Source: Diphasiastrum complanatum (lineage: Eukaryota > Streptophyta > Lycopodiopsida > Lycopodiales > Lycopodiaceae). Taken from it: a stretch of 64,000 nucleotides of DNA. A program made the position numbers and the translations under genes. The DNA is taken from contig CM055111.1 in assembly GCA_029204225.1 (NCBI GenBank), forward strand, positions 47,915,594-47,979,593, read 5' to 3'. This document shows, piece by piece, positions 2,936-61,983 of the stretch; the first letter of the stretch is position 1, and every line of letters starts with the position of its first letter. The notes below the pieces were generated by a model. The model saw nothing but the letters and a program-made list of their open reading frames with translations, did no database searches and was not told the origin of the DNA.

Positions 2936-4903
2936 TTAAGTAGATTGTTGAACCACAATCTTCAACCTCTTCACTATGTCTGCTTTATCATCCCACCTGT
3001 GAGAAGCCGCATAGATATTTGACATGAGAGCATATGCAGCTTTATTCGTTGGTTCCAACTTCACAATTGACTCAAACGACCTACGACCTAGGTCAACCTT
3101 TCCATGTGTCCGGCATGCTCCGAGCACTGACATCCATATTACAGCATCGGGTTTTAAGGGCATATTGCTGATAAACTCCTCTGCCTCATATAGATGGCCA
3201 GCGCGGCCAAGAAGGTCGACCATACACACATAGTGCTCCATCTGGGGCGTAATATCATGCACATCTGACATTGATGTAAAGAGTTCCACGGCTTTAGACA
3301 TAAGGCCAACGTGGCTGCAAGCTGTGAGCATAGAGATGAATGTCACCTTGTTTGGCTTCAGGCCATCTTGTTGCATTAGGTCAAATAATCGAAAAGCCTC
3401 GCAAGCAAGGCCTTGTTGGGCATACCCACTAATCATTGCAGTCCATGACACGACATCACGCTGGGGCATACCGTCAAATACTTTACGAGCCTCGTTAAGA
3501 TCCGCACACGAGGCATACATGTCAATCAGGGCATTTCCAATGGGCACATGAGATTCAAGTCCATTCTCCTTTATCTGACTGTGAATCTTCCTTCCAGGAC
3601 TCAAAGCCGCTACGCTCGCACATGCCTTAAGCGCACTTAAATAGGTGACGCTATTTGGAGGAATGGCTTCTTGCTGCATTCGATCAAATAATTCTAGGGC
3701 TTGCTTACCAAGACCCAGGTGGGTATACCCACTAATAATGGAGGTCCAAGACACTACATTACGATCTGGCAGTTCGTTAAATACTTTGATTGCCTCGCAA
3801 ATGCTGCCGCATTTGGCATACATATCAATCAGTGTGCTTCCAATCACAACATCCATTTCCCATCCACTTCTTACCATGTCTTTATGTATTAGTTTACCCA
3901 GGTCCAGTGCTGCTAGGCCACTACATGCTTTGAAGATGCTCAAGAAAGTTACTTTATTCGGCTCGAATCCCTCCTGTTGCATTTGCTCAAAACGATGCAG
4001 CGCATCAAGAAATAACCCATGCTGTGCATACCCTGAGAGTAGAGCAGTCCACGATATCACATCTCGTTCTGGCAATTTGTCGAACACTTTGCGAGCTTTG
4101 TCAAGCCTACCACAACTTATGTACATGTCAATGAGGGAATTTGCAACCACAACAAGGGATTCAAGGCCGCAATCAATGGTCTGTGCATGGATCTTCTTGC
4201 CCTTTTCTAAAGCGCCTAGGTTTGCACATGCCTTAAGGCTTGTTACGAAAGTGATAATATTCGGCCTAATGCCTTCTTGTTGCATTCGATCAAACAGCTC
4301 TAAAGCGTCATTGCCGCATGATTGCTGAGCATACCCTGTGATCATCGCCGTCCATGCAACCACATTAGGGCTAGGTAAGCTATCGAAAACCCTACGAGCT
4401 TCGTCGAGACTGCCACATTTTGCATACATGTGGATCAGACTGCTGGCCACAAAAACACTCAATTCTACTCCATTTTCCTTAACATGCCTATGAATCAACC
4501 TGCCGCGGATCAGGTCATTCATGCTCGCACACGCTTTGATGACAGCCACATAAACCCGAGGGCTAGAATTAGGGTTCGGCTTCGCCGCTGCCATTTCAAA
4601 ATAGAGCTGAAGGGCTTGTTCTGCTTGGCCATGCTGCAAATGCGAGGATATGATGGCAGCCCAGGCATGCGCGCTTGGCTGAGGAAGCCTCCGGAACACC
4701 TGCTTCGCTTCTTGCAGTTCCCCACAGGACGCAAACATGATAATAAGATGGTATGCCAGAATGGTATTTGTCTGGAAGCCATTGCTGAGGATGAGGGAAT
4801 ACACACGCCTGCCCGCAGAAACATCCTTTTTCTTAATGCAATCCTGCAGAAGAGAGTATAGTATGGTGATGGAAGCCTGTAGGTGTAACTTTGGGTGGAT
4901 CAT
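2936..4903 (-). CDS. PLS-class pentatricopeptide repeat protein, E-type, no DYW domain
   Basis: This single-exon gene encodes 655 residues. The ATG at 4903 is the first in the frame, with an in-frame TAG eight codons upstream. Residues ~47-586 are alternating S, P and L PPR motifs with the canonical phrases LIDMYAKCG, DVVSWTAMISGYAQQG and ARKVFD. An L2/S2 pair and a short E-like segment (~587-650) follow. The protein stops right after the IYAA..RWDD block, so E+ and DYW domains are absent. PPR proteins of this class act in mitochondria or plastids on specific RNAs, mostly in C-to-U editing; one without DYW needs a partner deaminase. The paired code residues in successive S and P motifs are S/N, T/N, N/D, T/N, S/N, T/N, N/D, T/N, which by the published code would favour A,A,U,A,A,A,U,A with L motifs unassigned (inference). 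I see no clear transit peptide. The frame is intact, unlike everything around it. Confidence 0.95.
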   Translation of the reverse strand: MIHPKLHLQASITILYSLLQDCIKKKDVSAGRRVYSLILSNGFQTNTILAYHLIIMFASCGELQEAKQVFRRLPQPSAHAWAAIISSHLQHGQAEQALQLYFEMAAAKPNPNSSPRVYVAVIKACASMNDLIRGRLIHRHVKENGVELSVFVASSLIHMYAKCGSLDEARRVFDSLPSPNVVAWTAMITGYAQQSCGNDALELFDRMQQEGIRPNIITFVTSLKACANLGALEKGKKIHAQTIDCGLESLVVVANSLIDMYISCGRLDKARKVFDKLPERDVISWTALLSGYAQHGLFLDALHRFEQMQQEGFEPNKVTFLSIFKACSGLAALDLGKLIHKDMVRSGWEMDVVIGSTLIDMYAKCGSICEAIKVFNELPDRNVVSWTSIISGYTHLGLGKQALELFDRMQQEAIPPNSVTYLSALKACASVAALSPGRKIHSQIKENGLESHVPIGNALIDMYASCADLNEARKVFDGMPQRDVVSWTAMISGYAQQGLACEAFRLFDLMQQDGLKPNKVTFISMLTACSHVGLMSKAVELFTSMSDVHDITPQMEHYVCMVDLLGRAGHLYEAEEFISNMPLKPDAVIWMSVLGACRTHGKVDLGRRSFESIVKLEPTNKAAYALMSNIYAASHRWDDKADIVKRLKIVVQQST

Positions 4904-5192
4904 CAGAGCTGCTATGGTTTGAAGCTATGGCGTCAGAAAATTTCTCAGCATCACCATCCAACCAGACTCTTTTTTCTTTTTTTTTTGCTTCTTTACCAAA
5001 AACAAAAAAAAAAGCGAGTTTAGAGAGAAAACAAAGAGAGTGTGGCAAGCCACATGCCCTTACTCAAATCTTGCTTTGCTTCCTTTTTTTTTAAGAAACT
5101 CGTTGACAATAGTAGCATGTAACAATAGATAAAGGTGAAGAGCATCACGGTTTTCAAAGCAAAAGGAATAAGATTCTCTCCAATCGTGGGAT

Positions 5193-9099: not shown

Positions 9100-12000
9100 G
9101 TCCCTAAGAAGTGGGATAAGGTAGACCTTCATCCTCAAGAAAAAGCCAAATACATCAAGAGGTGCAATGTTGCACTACATTGCATAAAAATGAATGTTGC
9201 AAATGAACTCTTAAGAGAGGTAGGAGATTGCACTTCAGCTCAAGATGCTTGGGAGACTTTGCGAAAGGTCTATTAATCCAAGAACCAAACTAGAATGTTA
9301 GCTTTGAAGAATCAAATCTATAGAAGCTATCAAAAGAAAGGAGAGAGTGCACATACTTTTGTCCTAAGAGTAAAGGAATTGAACAAAGAGCTAGCCTTTA
9401 TAGGTGACCCTATCAAGGATGAAGAGCTTGTTCAACTCATATTGAATGGACTAAGCTTTGAATTTGACAATTTGGTTCAGGGATATGCAATTATGGGTAA
9501 GCTACCTATACTTGAAGAACTCCAAGGCACACTCATGGTCGAGGAATCAAGAAGGAGCCAAATGCAAGAGAGGATGGATAGGCTTTCCATCCAAGGTGGA
9601 GATGACCAAGCTCTCTTCACCAAAGGCAAAGGCAAGTCCAAAGGCAAAGGATCAACATTCAAGAAGTCTACAAAGCTTGAGGATCAAGAAGGACCCCCAA
9701 AGGCATCTCCATCAACCACCAAAGTCAAGAAGGACAAATCAAAGGTGAAGTGCTACTATTGTAGCAAGATGGGGCATTATGCCTCGGAATGCTTCAAGAG
9801 GAAGCAAGATCAAAGCCAAGCCAACATGAGCAAAGAGGAGGAGGAGGAGAGTTCACATGAGGACTCTCTCATGATGTCCATATTTTCTTCAACAAGCTTC
9901 AAAGGAGAAGATCCTTGGTGGATTGACTCGGGTGCTAGTTCACACATGACTAGTAAAAGGGAGTTTTTCTCTTCTCTCTTATCTTATGATGGACCTATAA
10001 AGTCTATCTATACAGCAAATGATGAAGCTTGTAAGATTGAAGGAGTTGGTAGCATTCCCCTTTGCTTAGGATCTTCCAAAAAGATCAACATAGAAGGTGT
10101 TTTGTACATTCCTACAATAACAAAGAATCTACTAAGTGTTGGCCAAATGGTAGACAATAGTTTCAATGTTGACTTTGCTTCAAATGAATGTTTCATCAAG
10201 AAGAAGGGTAAGATAGTGGCTAAGGGCACTAGACTTGGCAAACTTTATAAGCTGGATGCATTTGTGGATACTAATGTTGTCATGTTGGCCGAGAAGAGCA
10301 AAATATCTACCTTTACTTTATGGCACAAAAGACTTGGACATGTCAACTCGCGTTCCATGGAGGCTATGATCAAGGAGGAGTATGCTTTAGGCCTACCAAG
10401 GTCTATTGGGAAGGAAGACAAGGTTTGTGAAGCTTGTGCCTTATCCAAGGCACATAAGAAGGTGTTTCCTAACTCCATCACAAAGTCATCTCATCCTCTT
10501 GAACTCATACACTCGGATGTGCACATTGCTAGCACCAAATCTAATGGAGGTTCATCCATGTTTTTAACCTTCATTGATGACTACTCAAGATATTGTTGGG
10601 TGTTCTTACTTTCCTTCAAGTCTCAAGTATTTGATACTTTTGTAAAGTTCAAGTTGTTTGTGGAAAAGCATCATAATCATAGCATCAAGATTCTTAGAAG
10701 TGACAATGGTGGAGAATTCATCTCCAATGAGTTCAAGGTCTTTTGTGAGGAGGAAGGGATCAAGAAAGAGACTTCTTGTCCTTACACTCCTCAACAAAAT
10801 GGAGTTGCTGAAAGAAGGAATAGAACATTATGTGAATGTTCTAAGGCTTTAAGATTAGATGCTTGTTTGCCCAAATCCTTTTGGGGCAGTCTCTTGTATG
10901 TGCAAACTACTTGATGAATAGGGTGTCTTGCAAAGCCATTGAAGGCAAAACTCCTTCTGAGATGTTGTATGGAAAGAAACCCAATCTTAATCACTTGAAA
11001 GTTTTTGGGTGTATATGTTATGTGCATGTGCCATTGGAAACAAGAACCAAGGAGGATCCATCTTCCACAAGAGTGATCATGCTTGGATATGCAAGCTCAA
11101 GCAAGGGCTACAAAGTCTATCTCCCATCCTTGAACAAATTTGTTGTTTCAAGGGATGTCATCTTTGATGAACATCATATGCATATGCTTGAAGAAGGCTC
11201 AAGTGCTCCAACAATCAAGAAGAAGATGGCCGAGGAGCAAGATCTTGGTTTTGAGGAGGAGCTCATGGAGGAGCAAGCACCAAACCCACCTATCACACCA
11301 AGGAGATCTTCAAGGGCAAAAGTGGAGCCATCAAGGCTCACATATCAAGGCAAAGGACAGCAAGTTGAGGGTATCTCATCCACTTCTTATGCTTTATCTA
11401 GTTTTGAAGAACCGTCTAATGTTGAAGATGCATTGAACTCCAAAGAATGGTATAAAGCTACGTTGGATGAGTATGATGCCTTGATTGAGAATGAAACTTG
11501 GTTGCTTGTTGAGAGACCTCAAAGGAATGTAATAGGATGCAAGTGGGTCTTCAAGCTTAAGTTGAATGCAAATGGGAGTGTTAACAAACATAAAGCAAGA
11601 TTAGTTGCAAAAGGTTATGCTCAAGAGAAAGGGATAGACTATGAGAAAACTTTTGCACCCGTGGCCAAGATGGTCACAATAAGACTAATCATTGCACTTG
11701 CATCACATTTTGGATGGATTCTATGTCAAATGGATGTCTCTAATGCTTTCTTGAATGGTTTTTTGGAAGAAGATATCTATATGGAGCAGCCACAAGGGTT
11801 CATCAAGCATGGAATGGAGAACAAAGTATGCCATCTCCAAAGAAGCATCTATGGCTTGAAGCAAGCCTCGAGATCTTGGAATTCAAGACTACATTGCTAT
11901 CTTATTTCACTTTCTTTTGTTCAAAGTGAAAATGATCCCACTCTTTACATTAAGTTTGATGATGTTGGTATTGTACTTTTACTCATTTATGTAGATGACA

Positions 12001-12953
12001 TCATCATTAGTGAAAATAGTGTTGATGGTATTGAAAAAATCAAGATAGATCTATCTTTAGAGTTCAAGATGGTAGATCTAGGGTGTCTTCACTTCATCTT
12101 AGACATAGAAGTACTTAGAGGGTCTGATTTTATCTTTATAAGTCAAGTAAACTATGCTCAAAGTCTTTTGAAGAAGTTTAAGATGAAAGTATGCAAAAGT
12201 GTTGACACACCAATGGAGCAAGATGTAAAAGTGCCAAATGAAGATGATGAAAGATCCTTTATGGACATCACTTTGTTTAGGCAACTTATAGGTTCCTTAA
12301 TGTGGATCACTATAACTAGACCAGATCTTAGCTTTAGTGTATGTAGGTTGAGCCAATCCATGCAAAAGCCATTGACTATCCATTGGAAAAAGGCTAAGAG
12401 GATTCTAAGATACATCTCGGGTACATTGGATTTTGGGATTCTATATAGAGGAGATGTGATTAACCTTCATGCATTTAGTGATTCAGATTTTGCAGGGGAC
12501 AAGAGGGATAGGAAATCAACAAGTGCCTATTCAACTTTCATAGGAGAAGGTGTGGTTTCATGGCTTTCAAAAAAGCAAGAAACTATATCTCTATCTTCAA
12601 CCGAGGCCGAGTACAAAGCTTTGACAACCACTACAAAGGAGGTACTTTGGATCAAGAGATTATTGGTGGAACTAAAGATCATGGATTCAGAGGAGGCACC
12701 AATCATCTACAATGACAATATATCATCCCAACACCTTGCATCTAACCCAATCTTCCATGCAAGATCTAAGCACATTGAGGTATGCCATCACTTTGTGAGA
12801 GAAATGGTGCAAGCCAAGGAGATTGCTTTGGAGCATGTTCCAAGCAATGAATGTGTAGCTGATCTACTTACTAAACCACTTCAAAAGACACCTTTTATGA
12901 AGTTCAGATCATCACTTGGAGTGATTAGTAAAGCAATGATTGAACCAAGCTAG
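9100..12953 (+). pseudogene. gag-pol of copia element A (broken)
   Basis: The polyprotein would supply capsid, protease, integrase, reverse transcriptase and RNase H in cytoplasmic particles. The domains in order are gag; a CCHC knuckle (CYYCSKMGHYASEC, 9751-9792); retropepsin (WIDSGASSHMT, ~9920); pre-integrase (LWHKRLGH); an integrase core with D, D, E (LIHSDVH, RSDNGGEF, NGVAERRNR); RT with YVDD at 11988-11999; and RNase H (SLSSTEAEYKA). It ends at ADLLTKPL. Lesions: an in-frame TAA at 9274-9276 in gag; and a frameshift near 10885-10895, where the frame from 9295 ends at 10914 and pol continues in the frame open from 10863. The first ~60 gag residues usual in this family are absent: upstream of 9100 the frame hits TGA at 9088. 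The text there, TCTTTTCAG|G, resembles a splice acceptor. Confidence 0.93.
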
Positions 12954-40501: not shown

Positions 40502-40919
40502 CATCTTTTCTCTCGTATATATTCTACATTTTATTTTTATTTTTTGTGTTATTTTTTATTCATTCTATTACTTTTTATTTTATTTCCTTGTTTGTAATTC
40601 TCGTTTTGCATGCCTGTTGTTCACCTCATTCCTTGTTTATACTTCATACCATTTCTTATGTACTATCTATGCATTTTCTTTTTTCTGTACATACTCATGG
40701 GTCATGGATGTTCTAGATCAACAAATGATAGGCTACACCATAGGAAGTGATTCTCACACTTTAGCCACCTCATCTTCGTCTGACTGGTATCTCAGGCATA
40801 CAAACATTCCTGGAGATACACCTTCTTCGTAAGAGCTTCTACTCTGAGCCACAGTCATGTTTTCCCTTGAAGTTCTTCACTTGCAGAAAATAGATCAATT
40901 CCTTCATATTGGAATTTTG

Positions 40920-41119
40920 TCAAATCTCAACCGACTGGATCCGTTCAAATCTCAACCGACGGGATTCGTTCAAATCTCAACGGATGGGATCTGCTCAAAT
41001 CTCAACCGATGGGATCCGTTCAAATCTCAACCGACGGGATCTGTTCAAATCTCAACCGACGAGATTCGCTCAAATCTCAACCGACGGGATCCGCCCGAAT
41101 CTCAACTGATGGATTTTCA
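40920..41119 (+). repeat. tandem array, 8 x 25 bp, with DRE-like cores
   Basis: Eight units of 25 bp (starts 40920, 40945, ... 41095) have consensus TCAAATCTCAACCGAC plus GGGATYYGY. Five units carry ACCGAC, the RCCGAC core bound by DREB/CBF factors. The array lies downstream of gypsy pol, where an LTR would be. Because 25 is not a multiple of 3, all three frames translate to the same repeating peptide; none is a gene. Confidence 0.95.
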
Positions 41120-41809
41120 TCAAATCTTGACACTTCTCATTCAAAATCCAACGAACAGACACGTCCCATCGCGCCCGAACCTAGCCGACGACGACCATAA
41201 ATGCCATCACTTCAACGCCATTCACACTTCAGCAAAGTGCGAACTCTGGAGCTCTCTGATGACAATCTGTTGGTGAGTTTCTGGCTCTCCTACACGATCT
41301 TGGCGCTCTCTCGTCCGGTGCATCAGTCATTGCTTCCACACCATCTCCACCCAATATCAGCCATCCTAGTGTGTTTCCCATTGAGAGTGCCATCACAAAC
41401 CATCTCCAAACCTTATATTGCCAGTGGAGAACAAAGCATTTGAAACATTTCGCACGCTGAGGGGTAGTGTCATGCAAGCCTTCAACACACTTCCGTTACA
41501 CTATTGAGTATCACCTTTTAATCTTACACACTTTTCTTTCATCCTGTCCAAACACCCGTTTTCACCGAAAGCTACTTTCTTTACATCTCCCAATATCTTC
41601 ATCCCTTTCGCTTAGTCACAAACATATATCAACATCTTCTTTTTCGGAACTTCTACTTTCCATTGTTCACACCATACTTCATTTTCCACACATCCTCCAT
41701 ACCCTTCTATCCACAACGCCTCCACTTTCACACACCTTCCTTCCCAACCTCAGTTCCTCACAGTCCATTCCTTTCCCGCCATCACTCCCTTCAGCCAGCC
41801 TTTCCATTA

Positions 41810-41984
41810 CATCTCAACCGACACATTTCCATTACATCTCAGCCGACGCCTTTCTATTACATCTCAGCTGACGCCCTCCCCTCCCATCTCAGCCGACGCC
41901 CTCCGCTCCCATCTGAACCGACGCCCTCCGCTCCCATCTCAGCCAACACCCTCCGATCAAATCTCAACCAACGCCTGTTAACCC
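41810..41984 (+). repeat. second tandem array, 7 x 25 bp, related core
   Basis: Seven units of 25 bp start at 41810, 41835 and so on to 41960. They have core CATCTCARCCGACGCCCTCC. ACCGAC and GCCGAC both occur, so both bases allowed by the RCCGAC motif are used. The core ATCTCAACCGAC is shared with the array at 40.9 kb; the other half of the unit differs. Confidence 0.9.
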
Positions 41985-44009: not shown

Positions 44010-44044
44010 CATTAGAGGAGTTCTCAATATCAAAAAGACCCTTT
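44010..44044 (+). repeat. left terminal inverted repeat of the four-gene element
   Basis: The outer end reads CATTAGAGGAGTTCTCAATA and continues to GACCCTTT. It is the reverse complement of 51260-51294 with one mismatch. The sequence does not begin with CACTA. Confidence 0.85.
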
Positions 44045-44477
44045 GTATAGATATTTTTATTTTTTATTTTTTTCAGTTTCGACCGTCACCAGGTCCAATC
44101 AAAATGCACAGATTTGAAATCTACGTAACGTAGTTCAAATTGACTAAAAAATAAAAATGCAATATAGCGAAATTTAAAATTTTGTCCGGGCAACATGTAC
44201 GTATCCCATTGGTTTCTTTTTCCTGCTCGACACATGCTAATATGCCCGACGTCAATATCTCAAGTTAAATTTACTTTACTATGCTAGTTAGTATAATGAA
44301 ATTTTCTAACTATACTAGTTACGGTTATAGAAATAAAGTATGTACAGTTACATAAAATATGGTATACGCAGTAATTGTGACTATGTTGGCATTCACATTA
44401 GATTAAATGTGATACGAAAAATTAAAACCAAGTAACATATCAGAGAGATTTTTGGCGCCCAAGCTTTGAAAATAGCA

Positions 44478-45852
44478 ATGGTGAGGAGACCCAGATCTAC
44501 AATCGATTATGTGATTCTTTACAATGAGAAAGATGAAGCTGATAACTAGAAGCCAACAAAATATACGAAGAACTCATGGGTATTGCTGCATCCATCATCA
44601 AAAGGCAATTTTCGACAAAAGAAAAGAGCAAAAATGACTTACAAATCTTATTGGAAAGCAAAAATTTTGGGATTTAAGACTACCCTGGGAGGTTAATCGA
44701 TATCCGAAGTCTTAGTGCAACATGTATATATGCATTCAGAAATCAAAGTACATGATATCAATCCTCATGATCATAAAAAATGTAATTGTAAGTATATCAA
44801 AACATATGCACTCTACAGCAATCATAGGTGATTTCCTTTATTGATGCTCTTCAGATTATGATTTAAATGCTTCAACATTGTTTTTTTTTTTTTCGGATTT
44901 ATATCCATTATGCATAAGTGAATGGGAGCCCGCACAATCACTTGCAGGAATATTAGACATGATTCACTCTGATGTTGGAAAGCTACAATACAGAGGAAGA
45001 AGTCCAAAGGAACTTGCAGATTGTGGTATCTATTTTTATGAATCTTTATATACGCCACAAACAGATGGAGGTTTTGGCAAGCTCGAAGCAATTCCATTGC
45101 CTAGTTTTCAAAGTGATGAGTGGCCTACTCCTGACAACATTGTTTCTGAATCCTTGAGATGCAAGCTACTCATTGATATTAAAAATGCTATGAAGATAAG
45201 CACAAGCTCAAAAATTGTTCACCTAAGTTGGTTTATCTCATTGCATACATTTGTTGATTTTTTCTCGAGTGCTAGTGTTTGTAGGACACCAACTTTATTT
45301 GTTTGCAAGGATTTATCAGATGAGACTTTGTCAGATCTCATGGATCAAGGCTGGGATAGTAAAACAAATAATGGCATAGAATTCAGGATTAAAAAGTACT
45401 CAATGATCTTTCAATATTATATCGAAAAGCAAATGCTCAGTCTCACATTTAGCTACCAGAGATACAAGAAAATTGAAGGTACATGGCTACCACTGGATTA
45501 AGACTTTGAACTAAATGGTCACACAAACTGAATGGAGATAAGCATTATCTACAATGAGGAATATTTGACTATGGTTGAGGTGGAAGAGCACTAAAAGCTT
45601 GATTTTATCAGAACAGAGCTGATGCTATTACAAACCAATCTACCAACATATTTCAGATTTATCATCAACGGAAGACTCGTAAGTACTTTATGTTTATTGC
45701 CATTTCAAAATAGAACAAAATAATAGAAAATGTCATCATTTACAATTACACATTCACTAATATTTGCCATGTCATAGATGCGAAAAAGACAGGAGCTGAT
45801 AACGTGCTGCAAAGATCTACCTACAACAATCACCATTGTGGGAGAACAATAG
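44478..45852 (+). pseudogene. element gene 1: spliced, unrecognised protein (~340 codons)
   Basis: Three exons join in phase: 44478-44691 (ends G|GTTAAT, phase 1), 44948-45678 (acceptor CAATCACTTGCAG, donor CTC|GTAAGTAC) and 45778-45852 (acceptor TGTCATAG), ending in TAG. An in-frame TAA upstream supports the ATG at 44478. The protein starts basic (MVRRPRSTIDYVILY, FRQKKRAKMTYKSYWKAK). It continues with GILDMIHSDVGKLQYRGRSP and a middle rich in aromatic residues. I recognise no domain, and it is one of the places to look for a transposase. In-frame stops: TAG 44547, TAA 45499, TGA 45529, TAA 45592; no frameshift. The stop codon lies 195 bp from the end of the convergent gene 2. Confidence 0.6.
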
Positions 45853-46047
45853 TTTCAAATAAACTTTGGTAAAAATCTGTGTATACACCCTTTCATTCAA
45901 TAAATGAAAGCCCAAGTTGGGCATCTGTACATGTATTTTGTGCTCCCAAATTCATAAACTGGAGCAACATTTGATATATCAATGTATATTTTTCTATGAA
46001 GTCTATACATGTATTTTGGTTCTATGCTATCTATATTGTTTCTGATT

Positions 46048-47762
46048 TTAATTTAGTACAACTACATCATCTTTTGTACCATCATCAATAACGGGAGGCT
46101 GAAGCCTTGCCCGAGCCAGTATACTCAGGATAATTTCTTGTCTAAATCTGTACACCTGGCTTGATGTGTACTCTGGAAGTGTAAACTGCAAAATAGAACA
46201 TTTATGCATTAGTAATGGCCAATAACATCACCAGAATAGAAAACTAATCATGATTCCAAAATAAGAATAAACAGAATTTATTACCTTAGAAATATCAACA
46301 TCTTGTTGAAGGATGAACCACTCAAAAAACAGCTTGGCATTGTACAATGTGTACCACCCACAGTTGAATGAATCATTTTGCTAGGGTGACTGCAAAATAA
46401 TTCAGCACACAAGAAATCAATTATGAAACAGAATGAATTAGATTGAAAATATTTCATTGGAATACTGATTTCAAAATGCTATTAAGAAAGAAGAGTTTAC
46501 CTCCAAGCTGACGATCTGCCAGTCCACGGAATGGGGAACGTCTGTAGGAATATATTTACTTAGATATGGAATGAATATATCTACATCCTTATGCGTATTT
46601 CTCGCCGAATTCATCTTGACACAAGAACATTTAGTAATATTATTTACAGATCTCTTAATAGAGATCAGGTTTAAACTCCAGTGGTCACTGCAAAATAAGA
46701 TTGAAAGTACTTTAGCGGCAATTCTGAGAACTATTTAAATTGAAAATGTCAATGTTAATGCATAAAACAAGAAGAAGCACTTAATATATCTTATTTGGTA
46801 TGATAAGGAATGACCAGATACTTTGTTGCTGGTGTGAATCCACTTGTCAGACACTGTGACAATGTGTCATTATTCTCCTTGAAGGCCTGGAGCCGAAAGT
46901 TACTCAGCACCAGCAACTCGTTTGATGAATCTCTTGCAATGTCAAATTGCAAGAGTGTCAGTCCGGAATCTATCACAGGATCAATGATAGAAGCCCATCT
47001 GTCTTTGAGATCCAGACAATCTAGAACTCTAAAATCAATACTAAAATCAAGTTCTTCTAGTCTAAAACAAAAAGGAGTACCAATTGTATCTATAGCATCC
47101 GATATGTCTTTCTCAAATTTAAGATAATCATGCGAATCTATATATGTATAGAAACTGGGAGGAGGAGGAGGAGGTGGAAGTGTAGTATCTACAGCAATAT
47201 TAGGAGTATCCAAAACAGAGGTAGCTATATTTACAGCATTATCTACAATGGATTCTGGGATAGGCTTCACTTTCTTAGGAGCATGCTTGGGGGCTGTCTG
47301 CTTCCTAGGACGCTTTGTAGGAAGATGAGTCCTATCTACAGGAGTTGGTCTAGGAGCAGCAGGCTGAGATACATGTAACCTATAGTACCTATCCCTCATT
47401 CTCATCAGAAGCTGAAAATCCTTGGGCATTATGGTAACCCTCTTGGTATGGATGGCAAGCAAAAAAGAATCCTAAAAAAAAAGGCTAATATAATCTTTAG
47501 CAGCCTCCTGAAGGCACTGAAGAGCACTCGGTGTGAATCTAACGTGCTATCCGAGATCATTTCTTGTTATGTTTCGGATAGCACAGTAGAATGGAGCTCT
47601 TGGGATCAACAGAGCTGTTGACCTCTGATACTTGCGTATCTCAGAGAGCCACCTGCTGCGGTTGCGCGTTCTAGGTCTAGCAGGGGGTGTGATGGCAACC
47701 GTAGGAGATGAGGATCAGCCAGGAGAGAAGAAGTCTCTCCTTGTCTGCTTTCTCCTATCCAT
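46048..47762 (-). pseudogene. element gene 2: histone H3-fold fused to Ulp1/C48 cysteine protease
   Basis: Four exons: 47762-46795, 46687-46501, 46389-46285, 46185-46048. Phases agree (2, 0, 0), giving ~465 codons. Residues 1-120 are an H3 domain: an H3-like start (MDRRKQTRR), then SEIRKYQRSTALL, SALQCLQEAAKDY and AIHTKRVTIMPKDFQL. The Phe after MPKD and a loop 1 one residue longer than canonical H3 resemble CENH3. A basic segment (KRPRKQTAPKHAPKKVK) and PPPPPPP linker follow. Residues ~200-465 are a Ulp1-type domain with YLVIPYH, DHWSLNLI (His325) and QNDSFNCGWY (Gln389, Cys395). The usual Asp may be Asn349. Such proteases cleave SUMO or related modifiers. Lesions: TGA 47717, TAG 47549, TAG 47474, TAG 46383 (positions of first base, minus strand), and exon 1 donor AT instead of GT at 46794-46793. 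Confidence 0.85.
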
Positions 47763-48084
47763 GGGCGTGAACTGTGTGATAGCGGACTTGTGCGTGAAGG
47801 TTAGGATGACAAGGAAGGGATGATAAAGGACTCGCAGAGGACCACTATGTACGGACAGAATGTACGGTATATCGGACCTATGCGAGCCGAATATCAGAGA
47901 GAACGATTAGATTTGAGGAAAGACGCACAAGTGCGATATGGGGTGACACGTAGGAAGATGTATCAGACCTGTGCGCATGGAAGGTAGTAGGAGGAATTTT
48001 GATCGTGAAGGACGCGCACAAATGCGATATGCGAAGCGAGAAAAAAGTGAAAAAAATTCATCGAAATTTGTGATTTTATATCGG

Positions 48085-48295
48085 GGTTTGCACGTGCGAA
48101 AGAACGTCCTGTCACACGTGTGGGAGTTGTACGGACAAATGCGAGAGCGACACGTGTCACTCTGTCACACTACACGTGTGGGATTTGTACGATCGAATGT
48201 GAGAGCGACACGTGTTTATAAGCACTCGAATGAACACGCGACACGTGTCTAGGTGTCATTTCACACATGTGCAGGTGTCATCTCACACGTGCCTG
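48085..48295. promoter_or_regulatory. bidirectional promoter candidate with seven G-boxes
   Basis: CACGTG occurs at 48091, 48115, 48151, 48173, 48209, 48242 and 48286, several in the form ACACGTGT, plus CACATG variants near 48262 and 48317. The cluster lies between the start of gene 2 (47762, minus) and gene 3 (plus, ~48.5 kb). G-boxes bind bZIP and bHLH factors; a dense cluster could drive both genes. Chance occurrence of seven 6-mers in 200 bp is very unlikely, but regulation is inferred. Confidence 0.6.
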
Positions 48296-48734
48296 CGCCT
48301 GTTGTCGAATTGAAAGTAGACATGTGTCATAAGTCCGTTGACCATGTGCGAAAATTTAATATAAATGGCACGAAAACCGAATATTTTTTTACCTTTTGCG
48401 TTCTCGAAATTCGCGACATATCGCTTTTGTGCATGCTCATTTCATATCTACATGTTTTCAGGACTGTATAACCAAATTCTGACGTATTTTATAAACATTA
48501 TGTCAGATTCAGGGATATACTTAGAAGCCTATTTCCTCCATAGGTCAACTCCAGTACATGCATTATACTGATCTTGTTCATTTCTTCCCAGCTTTTAGAC
48601 ATAGACTGGATAGAATGTTCACCAAATTGTTTGATCTTTTCAAAAGTAGTTCTATGTGTTCGTATTGCAACAAGAAATGTCAATTGGTTGAATATCAGAG
48701 TGGTTTCGTACTTTTTCTTTTAGTTCAGATCCCA

Positions 48735-49800
48735 GATGATGATGAGTTTCTTGTTGCTGACTCTCCTTTTGCACCCTCCTCTGTTCATCAGCCATTAGGG
48801 ATATCAGTCACTTTCTTATCGACACTCCTGATAAAGAAAGTGACTTCATTGATTTAAATACTGATGTTCTCCGGGATTCTTTCACTGGCCAAAATACATC
48901 TGATGATGAATCCAAATCTATGGAGGATTCGAAATGTCTTTTCAATTTGCTTGTATATTATATTAATGACAATGTATATTTTACTACTGCTGATTTATGT
49001 AAATTATTTGACTATCGTGAGGACGAGGTTCTATGTTTATTATCCGGCACAATTTCCGAATTCTCCGACTTTGTAGATTTTGAGACAGATGACCTTGTTG
49101 TTGGTATTGATTTTGATGATGAGGAGGGTCTTATGACCGGTGAAGAATGCCTGAATAAGCCTTTATCAAATATAGCTGAGGATGGGTGAGGCAGACCATC
49201 CGATGAAGAATTCACGGCATTTCAATCCCAGATGGGCTTCCTTCGTCCATCATTAATGCATTTCACTGATGATTCCACTTCAATACATGGTCATTATATT
49301 GATCATCCTGATCTGGTTGCTGCTGATGATGAAGAATGTGTAAGTGTTTAATCTTCCTTGCATTTGAATGTTTTCAATCACTGAATGTATTTTCGCTAAC
49401 ATATTTCCTATTGCAAAATGCTCTCATAATAGATGATTTTTCTGTGAGACGAGGTGGTTTCAGACAACACGCATCCTTGTTCCAGAGGGACAGTGGACTG
49501 GGCCACTATCTTCGGCATTTCTTGAAGAGTGAGATCTGTATTGCTCATTCCAAGCTGAGCCCAGTCGGGGAGAGTCTTATAATGGCAGTTAAAGCTTTAT
49601 CATTTTATTTAGGAGGACATAAATTTGTTAAGACAAATAAGATCATTTTTGTCAAAAGATCTTATGTTTTGAACATTTTAGGCTTTACTGATGGGAATGT
49701 TCCTTTAAGGAGATCCCATTATTCATTGTATTCCACTTATATTGAGCTTAGTGGAAATAAGGATAATGCACATCTATTAGATGCATACGCTAGCAGATAA
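48735..49800 (+). pseudogene. element gene 3: acidic, unrecognised, spliced
   Basis: The sequence opens after an acceptor-like TTCTTTTAGTTCAG at ~48734 (IPDDDEFLVADSPFAP) and shifts frame near 48798. It continues (FLIDTPDKESDFIDLNTDV, YINDNVYFTTADLCKLFDYR) to a TGA at 49187, reads on to TGT|GTAAGTG at 49340, and resumes at ~49433 with DFSVRRGGFRQHASLFQRDS and SLIMAVKALSFYLGGHKFVK, ending TAA at 49798-49800. The first half is strongly acidic and the second neutral to basic. Intron phases do not quite match (one base off), so another small indel is likely. Upstream exons before 48735 are probable (FRHRLDRMFTKLFDLF in 48.6 kb) but not resolved. No known domain is recognised. Confidence 0.5.
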
Positions 49801-50769
49801 TTTCTTTAGTTTAAATATTGTTGCATATGCTTCCCTACTAATACCTACAAAATCACAAGCACCCTGAACTATAGTCTTATCTAAAATATTTTGAATGTCC
49901 ACCATCAAAGACTCTGCTATTTTAAACTTTACATTTGAAATCCTATTGTTCATCATGATACGCTCAATGGATTTGCAAGTCAATATTGTGCCCAATGACA
50001 TTCCTAGTGAAGCATTGTCTTTAATATTCCGAGGAGCTACTAATGCAGATCTGCAAAAAAAAATAGATAGTTAGCAGAATATCACCATAGCTGAAATTAA
50101 AATCCAAATGTCATTGAAAAACTTACAAAATTTAGAATATGCTTACTTGAATGCACAGATCCTTCTATTTCGATAACCTCCTTTTGAAAGCGTTTGAATA
50201 TCCTTGCAACTTTGTCGCTTTCGCTTCTTACTTTCAGCCTTCTTCTTTACTAAATCCACATCCTTCAGTAATTGCAAGTTTTCAATACGAATAGACTGTA
50301 AGACTGATTGCATTTGCTCTATTTTTGATTTGATATTGATTGCTATCTTCTATAATGATTCATGATTTTTTTTAAGTTGTTCATTTTCTTCTAACGTCTT
50401 TTGGAGATGACAATCTCTATTCTGACAATAAGAGGATATCCGAATTAACTCACCTTCTAAAAAGTGAACTTTATTCATATAAAGTTGTTTTCCATGGTTT
50501 TGCAATCTTTCACAATATCCTAGTAATCCACTATGCCCATTGCATATCCATGTAACTAAATGAGTTATTGAAGAGAATGTGGGATGTGTCAAAGTGCTTG
50601 GATCTTGTGGATATAATGTTCCATCTGTCCACAAATCCACGTTTTTCTTTCCTTCTGCCCTGTAACGAGAACGATCTTCAGTAGATATTTGAACTCCTTT
50701 GCCTCCTCTTCTCTGCAAAGGTGCCAAATCAACAGGGATATCCACATGTAGATGATATAATGTCATCAT
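49777..50769 (-). pseudogene. element gene 4: coiled-coil protein with NLS, spliced, unrecognised
   Basis: Exon 1 (50769-50147) starts at ATG and ends AA|GTAAGC; exon 2 (50050-49777) follows TTTTTTGCAG and completes the codon in phase 2, giving ~298 codons. The N-terminal part (VDLWTDGTLYPQDPSTLTHP, ITHLVTWICNGHSGLLGYC) is unrecognised. Residues ~100-185 predict coiled coil (KTLEENEQLKKNHESL, SKIEQMQSVLQSI), then a nuclear-localisation-like KKKAESKKRKR and a C-terminal domain with CKSIERIMMNNRISNVKFKI. One TAG (50352) interrupts exon 1; otherwise intact. Its last 24 bp overlap the end of gene 3 on the other strand. Confidence 0.6.
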
Positions 50770-50898
50770 AAAAAAAAAATAGAGTAATCACTTGCATCAA
50801 AGTACTATGACCAGATTCTATGAAGCAAAACAAAATACTCATCTTTGATTATATTATATACTATGTACGATCAATCCAATCTCCATGCTTGTATGCTT

Positions 50899-51034
50899 GA
50901 TTCAAATTTGGAAATGCCGCTCATTTTTTCATTCCAATAGGTAGTTGGCGCTCATATTTCCATTCTTGTGGAAGGAATGCATATGTAAACATTTTGCAAT
51001 TTTTTCTGATTCAAATTTGGGGATGGCGGTCATA
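50899..51034 (-). repeat. subterminal repeats at the right end of the element
   Basis: GATTCAAATTTGGAAATGCC (50899) and GATTCAAATTTGGGGATGGC (51009) share a 26-bp unit ending in a CGSTCAT word. They lie between gene 4 and the right terminus. Subterminal repeats are common transposase-binding sites in DNA transposons; the role here is inferred. Confidence 0.4.
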
Positions 51035-51259
51035 TTCTAGATCCAGTGAAAATATTGTCCTTTTCGTAACCAATGGAGGGAATATTTTTGAATTTAGTCA
51101 AGTTATACTGCGAACTATTAACAGTTCTTAACTGTGACTATAGACACTGTGGTTAGATCATTGAGAGTTGGGGAGGCCTTGGGAGTGGTGTGGGCAAGCA
51201 AACAAACAATATTGTTTTATTTATTTTGATATTTTTGTATATCCTACATGGCATTTCTT

Positions 51260-51294
51260 AAAGGGTCTTTTTGATATTAAGAACTCCTCTAATG
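51260..51294 (-). repeat. right terminal inverted repeat of the four-gene element
   Basis: AAAGGGTCTTTTTGATATTA continues to CTCCTCTAATG and is the reverse complement of 44010-44044 with one mismatch. Bases outside (CCTGCAACAG) do not match the left flank. Confidence 0.85.
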
Positions 51295-57723: not shown

Positions 57724-60700
57724 CTATGAAGATTTGAACATTGATCTTGATATAACTCCAAGATTAGATCTATGCTTGATGAAAGCACTTTTGCTCAAAG
57801 GCTTGGTGAGTAGATCGGCAATACAAGAGGACGAGTTGACATGCTCCAAATAGATTTCTTCTCCAATAAGCTTTTCTCTCACAAAATGGTGTGCCACTTC
57901 TATGTGCTTGCTTCTTGCATGAAATATGGGATTATTGGCAAGAGCTTGGGCCGAGATGTTATCACACTTGATCATTGGTAGATCATCCTCCTTGATGCAC
58001 TTTAGTTCCAAAGCACTTCTTTGGTAGTTGTAGTGAGTGCTTTGTACTCGGCCTCACATGAAGAGAGAGATATAGTATCTTGCTTTTTGGAAAGCCAAGA
58101 TATTAGATTGCCTCCAAGAAAGATAGTGTATGCACTAATAGACTTTCGATCCATCTTGTCACTTGCAAAGTCCGAATCCGAGTAGCCAATAATGGATAGA
58201 TCTTCACTTTTATAGAGTAGACCATAATCACAAGATGAAGATACATATCTTAGAATCCTCTTGGCCATCTTCCAATGATGGATCTTAGGATCTTGCATAA
58301 CTTGACTCAATTTGTGCACACAAAAACTAAGATCGGGCCTAGTAATGGTAAGCCAAATCAAGGAGCCTACAAGACTCCTAAAAAGTGTGATGTCCTCAAA
58401 GGATCTTTCATCACCTTTATTAGGATCTTTTACAATTTGCTCCATTGGAGTATCTATGCTCTTAGAATGGAACACCTTCCAATTGAAAAAACAAGCAAGA
58501 GATATAAGAATTCTTATTGTCACCATCTTTGCAACGGATGCAAAGGTCTCCTCATAATCAAGACCATGGATTTGAGCAAATCCTTTGGCACATAATCTTG
58601 CTTTATGCTTGTTGATGGTGCCATCATGATTGAACTTGATCCGAAATACCCACTTGCAACCAATCACATGCTTGTTGGATGGAGGATCCACAAGCTCCCA
58701 AGTATTGTTGGTGATCAATGCATCATACTCTTGCTTCATGGCATCATACCACTCCTTGGTATTGAGTGCCTCTTGTACATTCTTTGGCTCTTCATGAGAG
58801 ACATAAAAAACATAATTAGTGGAATCAAGATCCACTTGTTTGCCTTTGTCAACATATGAGAGCCTCTTAGGCTCGGATCTATCTCTCATGGATCTTCTTG
58901 GTGAAAAAATCCGAGGAGAGTCTTCTTCAAATCTCGACCCCATCACATCATGATTGTCTTCAAAATCAATAATTGATGATGCATTCATAGATTTCTTGAT
59001 CTCGGCCTCTTCAAATGATGAGTGTTGATCTTCATGAAAGACAACATCTCTACTTTCAACAACTTGAGAAGTAGAGAGTATAAAGAATCTATAGGCCTTC
59101 TTGGTGGATGAGTATCCAACCATGATCCCTTTGCATGCACTAGGATCTTCCTTCTTCCTTGTTTCCAAGGGAATATGGACAAAGCATAAGCATCCAAAAA
59201 CTCTAAGGTGATCAACCTTAGGCTTCTTAAAAAAAAAGATTTCATATGGTGACTTTCCTCCAAGAGCTATATGTGGGAGCCTATTGCAAAGATAATTTGC
59301 ACAATTGATGGCTTCTCCCCAAAAATCTTTGGGCAAAGATGCCTCAATTATCATAGATTTTGCACATTCACATAGAGATCTATTCTTTCTCTCGGCCACT
59401 CCATTTTGAGATGGAGAGTAGGCACAAGAAAACTCTCTTTTAATGCCTTCAAGCTCACAAAAATCTTGAAATTTATTGGAGATATATTCACCACCTTTAT
59501 CACTTCTAAGATCTTTAATCTTGAATGAGAATTGCTTCTCTACATAAGCTTTGAAAATAAGGAAATGATAAAACACCATAGATTTTGAAGCAAGAAGATA
59601 TATCCAAGTGAATCTTGTGTAATCATCAATGAAAGTAACAAAACAAGTGGCTCCTCCCTTGCTTGTAGTTGATGAGAAATGCACATCCGAGTGGATTAAC
59701 TCCAAAGGATGCTTGCTTTTGATAGAAGATCTTGTAAATGGCTTTTTGTGAGATTTAGCAACAGCACAAGCCTCACAAGGCTTGATCTTCTTGGAGAATG
59801 ACTTTGGCAAACCAATAGCTTTGGTCTCTTTGATCATAGAGAGCATGGATTTGTAGTTGGGATGTCCCAACCTCCTATGCCATAATTCCTCCATAGAGAG
59901 CTTGTTCACAAGAGCAACATTACAAGCATTCACATACTCATTTGGATCTAGTTTATAGATGCCACCAAATCTAGATCCTAATGCAAGTATCTCATCATTC
60001 TTCTTGATAGTGCAAGTATCAACATTGAATTCTACATCAAGGCCATTATCAAGCAATTGGCCAGCACTAATAAGATTCTTGGTAAGCTTAGGTACATAAA
60101 GAACTCTAGAGAGAGAAAGAACTTTAGAGGATGCAAGCTTCAAGGGAATGTTCCCTATGCCTTCAATAGGACATTCAAAATCATTTGTAGTGTATATTGA
60201 TTTCCTCACTCCATCATAAGGTGCAATAGAAGAGAAAGAGTCCTTGAAGCTACACATATGTGAAGAGGATCCACTATCAATATACCATAGGCCGTCCTTC
60301 TTGAAAGGAGTAGATGAGAAACTAGAGACCATAAGAGATCCCTCTCCATCACTTGCAATAGTATCTTCCTTCTCATTGGTAATATTGGCTTGCTTGAGTT
60401 GATTCTTCTTTTTGAAGCAATTGGTGGCATAATGACCTTTCTTGCCACAATAAAAGCACTTGATCTTCTTCTTCTTCTTGAGCTTGGATGATGAAGCATT
60501 AGAGGAATCATCTTCCTCCTCATCTTTGTCTTTGGATTTGACTTTGTCCTTGCTTGAGGATTGTTGATGTTGGTTCTTGCTCCTCTCTTTGTGCTTATCC
60601 TTGGCAAAGAGAGCTTTGCCATCATTATGAGTGAGAGAAAGCTTGTCCATCCTCAAGTGCTTGTACTCTTGTCTTGATTCTTCTGAAATTAGCACACTTT

Positions 60701-61238
60701 GGAGAGTCTCCAAACTTGGTAGCTCCTCCTTAATGGCATAGGATTGGACAAGGTTATCAAATTCACTTATCAAGCCATTGAGAATGACTTGAACTAGCTC
60801 ATTTTGATTGATGGAATCACCAATGCAAACAAGCTTTCTATGAATATCTTTTACTCTCAAAACATAACTAGATGCACTCTCATCACTCTTTTGGCTACTT
60901 TGAAAGATTTGATTCCTAAGAGTGAGAAGCCTAGAGGTATTCTTAGCCTCATAGATAGTCTTGAGACAATCCCAAGCTTCTTTGGCTGTTGTACAAGTAC
61001 CTATCTCCCTCAATATCTCATTAGAGACATTCATCTTAATGTAGTGGAGAGCCATCCTAGCTCTCTTTTTGTATTTTTGAACCTCTTGAAGAACTTGTGG
61101 TTCTTCTTCAAGGCCAAGAACTATGTCCATCACGTCTTGAAGAATCAAGATGGACTCCAGCCTCATTTTCCAAATTGAATAATTTGAAGTGGTCAATCTT
61201 TCACTTGGTTCCAACAAGGATGAACCCATTGAAGACAT
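57724..61238 (-). pseudogene. gag-pol of copia element C with RT catalytic core deleted
   Basis: The start is taken as the ATG at 61238 (MSSMGSSLLEPSERL); the frame is open further up only from a TTG. Gag, a CCHC knuckle (CFYCGKKGHYATNC), retropepsin (YIDSGSSSHM), pre-integrase (LWHRRLGHPN), and integrase (LIHSDVHF, RSDKGGEY, NGVAERKNR) are complete. RT begins (GCKWVFRIKFNHDGTINKHK) and then jumps from CFFNWKV to HSKSIDTPMEQ at ~58475, losing the segment with the catalytic YVDD while keeping frame. RNase H (SLSSCEAEYKALTT) follows to a premature TAA at 58002-58004. The last 95 residues (ADLLTKPL) continue in another frame (58011-57724). The deletion makes it unable to copy itself. Confidence 0.95.
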
Positions 61239-61983
61239 TTGAAGTGAAGAAAACTCAAATGATGAACAATAAATGTTGTTACACACTTTCAATAGGATCC
61301 AATAATTGAGTACTATCTCCTCCTATGAAAGATCTTACAACAATTTGTGAATTGATTCTCACTAGCTACTCAAATCTCTCTAAAACAAGATCTGTTTCAC
61401 ATCAAATGATGGAGTATAGGCAAAGTTAGGATCTAACACTCTTAGCACGTGTGAAATACACTAAGAAACCAAATTTGACTCAAATACAATGATATTGCAT
61501 GAAACAAAATGGCTAAGATCTCAAAACAGTGCCTAGATCACATATAGATGAGATTGGCAAGCATACAACTGTGATTTTGGATCAACCAAGCAATCTCTTG
61601 AACAAACCAAATGTGTCCACCCAGGTCTAGGTGCCCTACCTAACCTTCTTCAAAAGCTTATAACTTTTGATTGGCTCAACCAAATGGAATAAAACTGATT
61701 GCAACAGAAACTAGACAAAAATAGCTTCAAAACAAGCTATCAAGCAAGATAAATGGATCAAACATGAGAGAGAATTTTCAAACTGAAATTGGATGTTCCT
61801 CACACGTGTCTGAGCACCTGATTCCGTACAGTACCAGGTCAGACCCAATCAATGTCCTTTTGATCTCTTTTGATCCAAGATTGAACAAGATAGCTAGGAA
61901 AATGGGCCTTGACAACTTATAGCTCAAGATTGATGGAAATTTTTTCACTTAGATGGATCAAAATGCATGGTAACCTTAGGTAG

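Follow-up and report, generated by a model that had tools for sequence, protein, structure and literature searches.

A histone H3-C48 protease fusion encoded by a high-copy inverted-repeat transposon family of Diphasiastrum complanatum and its possible role in anti-silencing

A family of inverted-repeat DNA transposons with high copy number in the genome of Diphasiastrum complanatum encodes a spliced protein of 470-473 aa in which a histone H3 fold is fused to a Ulp1-type (C48) protease domain; we are almost certain of this. We propose that the transposon-encoded H3-C48 fusion acts as an anti-silencing factor, a statement to which, taken as a whole, we assign a probability of roughly 45%. One copy of the gene is located in the 64,000-nucleotide stretch of DNA analysed here, hereafter the window. 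Its family is referred to as Fam1, and a related second family, with an H3 but a different protein architecture, as Fam2.

In the window, the gene occupies positions 46048-47762 of the minus strand. Both stretches that the initial annotation had recognized there are matched by Pfam at these positions: the H3-like stretch in the exon-1 frame as Histone (6.6e-25, 88.2 bits, cut-off 26.4) and the C48 stretch, with the exon pieces joined with X, at 6.2e-10. The exon model given with them also holds, with the ATG at 47762, exons 2-4 of 187, 105 and 138 bases and the final TAA at 46048; the inner exons are preceded by AG and followed by GT, and exon 1 leaves two bases. The features of this copy are:

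46795-47762, minus strand: exon 1 of the H3-C48 gene, with a short tail, the H3 fold, a basic/proline linker and the N-terminal part of C48
47385-47648, minus strand: H3 histone-fold segment, 94% identical to the family-typical fold segment
46501-46687, minus strand: exon 2, C48 with DHW (catalytic His)
46285-46389, minus strand: exon 3, C48 with QNDSFNCG (Gln and nucleophile Cys), containing a TAG at 46381-46383
46048-46185, minus strand: exon 4 and stop codon
47715-47717, minus strand: in-frame stop TGA (majority codon TCA in the 16 aligned regions)
47547-47549, minus strand: in-frame stop TAG (majority codon CAG in the 16 aligned regions)
47472-47474, minus strand: in-frame stop TAG (majority codon GAG in the 16 aligned regions)
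46381-46383, minus strand: in-frame stop TAG (majority codon CAG in the 16 aligned regions)

The exon-1 donor is AT and not GT, as annotated: the window reads ATAAGA, whereas the other 15 aligned gene regions read GTAAGA (13), GTAGGA (one) or ATAAGA (one), in line with the single G-to-A change that had been proposed. Exon 1 thus combines three in-frame stops with an AT donor, and its linker is five codons shorter than that of sister copy L016. The reading of one gene that runs from H3 to protease is right as to the structure of the fusion; that the frame is not open in the window had gone unmentioned. Interrupted by four stops and deprived of its exon-1 donor, the window copy is dead, a pseudogene. 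A further copy, ~163 kb away in the opposite orientation (G000:C20:47799126-47800091 (+)), matches window exon 1 in its stops (one TGA and two TAG) and in its 371-aa frame; it and the window copy are perhaps a recent inverted duplication.

An exon-1 protein search with L016 as query returned 122 scored matches (from 9918 first-look candidates) with 84-100% identity. Nearly all of them (120) extend to query position 326 or 327 (out of 327), and the remaining two reach 311. No stop is present in 24 of the 122, and 98 contain one or more. The exon-1 stops across the scored copies comprise 162 TAG, 16 TAA and 14 TGA. CHG deamination was considered as the source of the TAG excess: C-to-T singletons occur at 2.5% in CG, 2.0% in CHG and 1.5% in CHH contexts, so the deamination signal is mild.

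For closer comparison, 20 loci were chosen for long stop-free frames and eight more for a stop-free exon 1. The 16 aligned Fam1 gene regions consist of 15 fetched regions, largely picked for intactness, and the window; because loci were chosen for open frames, the numbers of intact genes cannot be taken as those of a random sample. In six of the 16 regions (L016, L026, L046, L047, L049 and L051), all four exons are open and have GT-AG borders. Intact relatives therefore keep H3 and protease together in one frame, and the two form a single gene. When the spliced translation is scanned, as the initial annotation had advised, both domains score above their cut-offs in the 470-aa protein of L016: Histone at residues 27-123 (1e-27, 97.3 bits, cut-off 26.4) and Peptidase_C48 at residues 316-442 (1.1e-10, 42.2 bits, cut-off 20.7). 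The spliced protein of L051 gives a similar Pfam result. Since the exon 1/2 junction follows codon 327, the C48 match begins ahead of it, and exon 1 encodes the H3 fold together with the start of the protease; a weak alignment to SENP2 (E 0.01) extends further into the exon-1 part. A genome search with PF02902 yielded three matches among the 150 of 520 candidates that were scored, with no Fam1 copy among them, and exon-by-exon searching may explain why these copies were missed.

The window gene is enclosed by an inverted-repeat element of 7.3 kb (44010-51294). By open frames, the element consists of four genes, of which the putative transposase and H3-C48 share one strand and gene X and gene 3 lie on the opposite one:

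44010-44044, plus strand: left terminal inverted repeat (TIR) of 35 bp, CATTAGAGGAGTTCT..., 97% complementary to 51260-51294
51260-51294, minus strand: right terminal inverted repeat
49777-50787, minus strand: putative transposase remnants, N-terminal part (ORFs and blastn to sister copies)
48525-49800, plus strand: gene X, broken in the window copy (ORFs)
44845-45501, plus strand: part of gene 3 (ORF)

The terminal repeat is found 2,033 times in the 1.74-Gb genome with at most two mismatches (993 forward and 1040 reverse matches), and the same pattern read backwards, used as a control, gives 0 matches. Inverted repeats are present at both ends in all three copies in which ends and gene were read (window, L016 and L026). 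The elements of L016 and L026 share 94-99% DNA identity with the window element in long blocks (blastn) and carry ~1.8 kb that is absent from the window copy at ~49806. Sister copies have identical termini (CATTAG...) in unrelated flanks, with the exception of L038 and L039, which share one flank. Terminal inverted repeats, many dispersed copies and unrelated flanks identify the element as a TIR DNA transposon. H3-C48 is thus not a host gene but belongs, as an accessory gene, to this transposon.

Among eight elements with both ends read, one is flanked by a 3-bp direct repeat (TCA) and the Fam2 one by a 2-bp repeat (CA) as candidate target-site duplications, and the other six show no clear direct repeat. 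There is neither a hAT match in the scanned frames nor an 8-bp repeat at the eight elements. Pfam returned no match at cut-off for the scanned frames of the putative transposase, gene X or gene 3. The transposase was called by its place and, by eye, by its acidic residues and a Cys / HPCLYC-type motif, which resemble those of RNase-H-type transposases. The N-terminus of its Fam2 counterpart matches window positions 50757-50503 with 40% identity (6e-18, tblastn). A transposase is located within 12 kb for 24 of 39 H3 rows, at 3.6-3.8 kb and in convergent orientation for 21 of these; the sample, which comprised 39 rows for H3 and 30 of the 150 for the transposase, was picked by eye for apparent adjacency, and these counts illustrate linkage and are not an unbiased rate.

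Gene 3 has two features of its own. Its C-terminal part (L026:6996-7364 (-), and Fam2 L019) has a ubiquitin-like beta-grasp look by eye, which, if real, would be notable beside a Ulp1 domain; Fam2 gene 3 matches PB1 at just E 0.04 (Pfam). Its N-terminal part (L026:7883-8278 (-)) resembles the N terminus of a TnsA-like endonuclease below the cut-off (E 0.003, 18.5 bits, cut-off 26.5). Elsewhere in the window, a 662-aa open frame at 2939-4924 (minus strand) looks PPR-like by eye and is probably a host gene. Long frames at 9277-12950 (plus strand) and 58005-61322 (minus strand) have a Copia-type gag-pol look, likewise by eye, and tandem 25-bp repeats around TCAAATCTCAACCGACGGGATCCGT form two blocks at 40870-41169 and 41807-41981.

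Selection on the fusion was estimated with the Nei-Gojobori method between two subfamilies named by eye, A (seven copies: the six intact ones and L015) and B (three copies: L024, L027 and L053); L020, L025, L048, L050, L052 and the window fall outside this comparison. The dN/dS ratio is 0.25 for the tail, 0.11 for the H3 fold, 0.41 for the linker, 0.27 for the exon-1 part of C48, 0.26 for the rest of C48 and 0.64 for the last 25 codons. In all three A-B pairs tested, which were hand-picked and are not independent of one another, neutrality is rejected for the H3 fold (p 9.9e-7, 6.3e-8 and 1.2e-8) and for C48 (p 0.011, 7.4e-9 and 1.8e-8); the linker gives p values of 0.019, 0.0034 and 0.0058. 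Both the H3 fold and C48 are under purifying selection between the subfamilies. Among the six intact copies only, the ratios are higher (tail 0.58, H3 0.65, linker 2.34, C48 0.46 and 0.29), which we interpret as post-insertion drift. Near the linker (L016 codons 126-215), silent divergence between A and B falls: pS is 0.40 for the H3 fold and 0.16 for the first part of C48 (0.16-0.25 over C48). Because pS is higher in H3 than in C48, this pattern suggests an exchange of halves between the subfamilies near the linker.

The family-typical Fam1 fold is 57% identical to the canonical H3 of the same genome, which we take to be of the plant type, and 51% identical to Arabidopsis CENH3. The names of the PDB matches listed (60 of 177) are H3 names, with one group called 'Histone domain-containing protein'; H3.1 chains take second and third place (8kcb and 8j90), and no CENP-A or CENH3 name occurs among those listed. 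A CENH3 origin, hinted at by the initial annotation, is rejected on these identities and names. The extra residue in loop 1, one of the features behind the hint, is seen in the fold alignment. As the folds are nearer to canonical H3 and the PDB matches carry H3 names, the fold is most likely derived from canonical H3, the CENH3 compared being that of Arabidopsis. IMG/VR was also scanned with the H3 part, and none of the 31 pattern matches was confirmed as a relative.

Ahead of the fold, Fam1 has a short tail (MDRRKQTRRD...) and not the canonical tail with K4, K9 and K27; there is no K27 segment before the fold. The K4-like place holds Lys in 16 of 16 copies, and the K9-like place Asp in 14 of 16 and Lys in none. 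Six shuffle comparisons of tails and segments were made overall. Taken by itself, the Fam1 tail is not significantly like that of H3, as 565 of 3000 shuffles score as well. The segment behind the fold resembles H3 residues 14-27 (KAPRKQLATKAARK vs KRPRKQTAPKRAPK), with 5 to 15 of 3000 shuffles scoring as high (11 for L016 and 5 for L027). The fusion protein may thus display part of the H3 tail at a new place, behind the fold.

In the protease domain, the His (DHW) is present in 14 of the 16 aligned regions, with one of the others out of frame at this place and one cut short. Gln is in place in most of the 16. Of 14 readable regions, 12 retain the catalytic Cys; L015 and L049, the latter one of the six intact ORFs, have Tyr instead. 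The domain resembles the Ulp1/SENP SUMO proteases (6dg4, 1euv and 1tgz), whose catalytic region aligns with it, His, Gln and Cys included, but the similarity is weak (best E 0.001) and the catalytic Asp is not evident in these alignments, where a CVKMNS stretch offers at best an Asn. An Asn could take the place of the Asp, as in papain. Because the Asp is not evident, the protease activity is putative; with this qualification, chromatin-targeted deSUMOylation, as raised by the initial annotation, is a reasonable prediction.

Fam2 comprises 13 of the 20 loci picked for open frames, and here the H3 fold ends the protein. Its fold is 57% identical to the genome's H3, 49% to Arabidopsis CENH3 and 49% to the Fam1 fold. 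The frame of L009 matches Pfam Histone at 6.8e-29, and the 60 of 178 PDB matches listed for the Fam2 fold likewise carry H3 names, with no CENP-A among them. The pN/pS of the fold is 0.40 over 78 pairs. The two families have homologous genes around H3, with 43% identity for the putative transposase and, in pairwise comparisons, 31% for gene X (L016 vs Fam2, E 4e-14) and 32% for gene 3 (L026 vs Fam2, E 7e-16); the Fam2 TIR likewise starts with CATTAG. The Fam1 protease exons gave no tblastn match to Fam2 at E 0.05, and the few scattered matches of a Ulp1 motif scan over the 13 loci were dismissed by eye. As no C48 was found beside the Fam2 H3, the H3 and protease activities are separable.

The H3 frame of Fam2 begins with MSEEMARTKQTARD or a near variant, and ARTKQTAR is unchanged in 6 of 13 copies. 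Lys occupies the K4-like place in all 13, and the K9-like place is D in 11 and G in two. The tail as tested is an exact match to the H3 tail, and its likeness is significant (15 of 3000 shuffles as high). The first ATG precedes ARTK by five codons (MSEEM). In L009, L010 and L012, a TATA-like box is seen ahead of the H3 frame (~3960-4111, H3 orientation), and by eye the first ATG (MSEE) has a weak context and is followed by an ATG with a stronger context at MARTKQTARD. This arrangement suggests that leaky scanning could give Fam2 an exact H3 N-terminus.

H3K9 methylation keeps plant transposons silent, and a few plant transposons encode anti-silencing proteins, some of which have a Ulp1 domain. 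The H3-C48 protein could act in a similar way. By pairing with host H4, the H3 fold would bring the protein into or up to nucleosomes. The tail has a K4-like Lys, and H3-C48 could not take repressive H3K9 methylation because Asp is at the K9-like place and no K27 segment lies ahead of the fold. The tethered protease would strip SUMO from nearby silencing proteins, and the outcome would be a window for expression of the element's genes. Judged on its own, this mechanism is somewhat less likely than not to be right. A wider formulation, in which transposons evolved a K9-less H3, joined to a SUMO protease in one of the families, that sits in element chromatin and breaks the loop between H3K9 methylation and DNA methylation, is rather unlikely to hold in full. 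If true, a mobile element would edit its own chromatin with its own histone. The protein also provides a natural H3 in which more than 40% of the fold positions depart from the canonical sequence, and with it one can test directly if DNA is shielded from H3K9 and CHG methylation by an H3 that lacks K9.

Alternatively, the gene may serve movement and not escape from silencing, as an integration-targeting or transposition cofactor. The H3 fold would then tether the machinery to certain nucleosomes, and C48 would remove SUMO from the transposase or from host repair proteins. We regard this role as unlikely, yet it agrees with the putative transposase in the same element, the purifying selection on both domains and the presence of H3 in the second family as well; these features do not tell a cofactor from an anti-silencing factor.

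The chances are smaller that the protein is a poison histone, a dominant-negative H3 that sequesters H4 or histone chaperones or keeps nucleosomes from being assembled on the element, with a bulky C-terminal fusion partner and a protease that may be part-degenerate. Such a function would fit the H3 fold as the most constrained part (dN/dS 0.11), the catalytic Asp that is not evident, the loss of the Cys by substitution from two of the 14 copies readable there and the Fam2 H3, beside which no C48 was found. C48 is constrained too, however (0.26-0.27), and its His, Gln and Cys are mostly kept.

Capture of a host H3 and a protease piece by chance, amplified without function, is improbable. Plant transposons commonly capture genes, according to the accessible part of PMC13317346, capture and amplification of H3 is on record in fungi in that of PMC6710886, and 98 of the 122 scored copies have an exon-1 stop. 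Against such passive cargo stand an H3-fold dN/dS well under 1, the purifying selection seen in both domains when the subfamilies are compared, six intact spliced ORFs and an H3 kept in two related families. A host gene, or two adjacent genes misread as one, could be suspected from the window alone, with its single broken copy, but is ruled out for practical purposes by 122 scored copies with the same structure, inverted repeats at both ends in the window, L016 and L026, and an exon-1 frame in which both H3 and C48 start.

The reading of H3-C48 as an anti-silencing factor has its closest functional precedent in the Ulp1-bearing VANC (KIU) group of Arabidopsis VANDAL elements, a likeness by functional analogy. 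Anti-silencing proteins of this kind recognise non-coding motifs of their own and bring about hypomethylation of these. VANC proteins of these elements are described as anti-silencing factors in the accessible portions of PMC13317346, PMC10398659 and PMC5735166, and the Ulp1-bearing VANC (KIU) genes have been linked to hypomethylation of related elements (PMC13317346, same portion). KIU and KI-MULE (Kaonashi) elements resemble Fam1 as plant DNA transposons with an accessory gene for a Ulp1-type protease (PMC13317346 and PMC2528002, in the parts available). They are, however, non-TIR MULEs, whereas Fam1 has TIRs and a putative transposase without Pfam match, and the available text of PMC13317346 contains 0 occurrences of a histone. 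CACTA elements of grapevine and rice are likewise DNA transposons with a ULP1-like region; as given in the available part of PMC2528002, they have a Tnp2 transposase domain and no histone, in contrast to the H3 and the putative transposase without Pfam match of Fam1.

Compared to canonical plant H3, to which the fold is related as given above for the genome's own H3, the Fam1 protein has a replaced tail, a loop 1 longer by one residue and a C-terminal extension of ~345 aa with the protease. The initial annotation knew of no H3-Ulp1 fusion, and open-licence papers indeed yielded no described H3-Ulp1 fusion or histone-encoding transposon except for one fungal hAT case. This histone H3 in fungal hAT elements is the closest structural precedent, as far as the excerpted text of PMC6710886 goes, from which the following particulars also come. 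In Pseudocercospora fijiensis and relatives, an H3-like sequence is carried by a DNA transposon in hundreds of copies; the P. fijiensis hAT element has 20-bp TIRs and 8-bp target duplications, 90% of its H3 copies are truncated, and RIP has inactivated every copy except the original. Pyrenophora tritici-repentis has tens of H3 copies with little RIP, many of them potentially active. Unlike the hAT H3 of P. fijiensis, the H3 of Fam1 forms one spliced gene with a protease; some copies of this gene are intact, and purifying selection acts on it.
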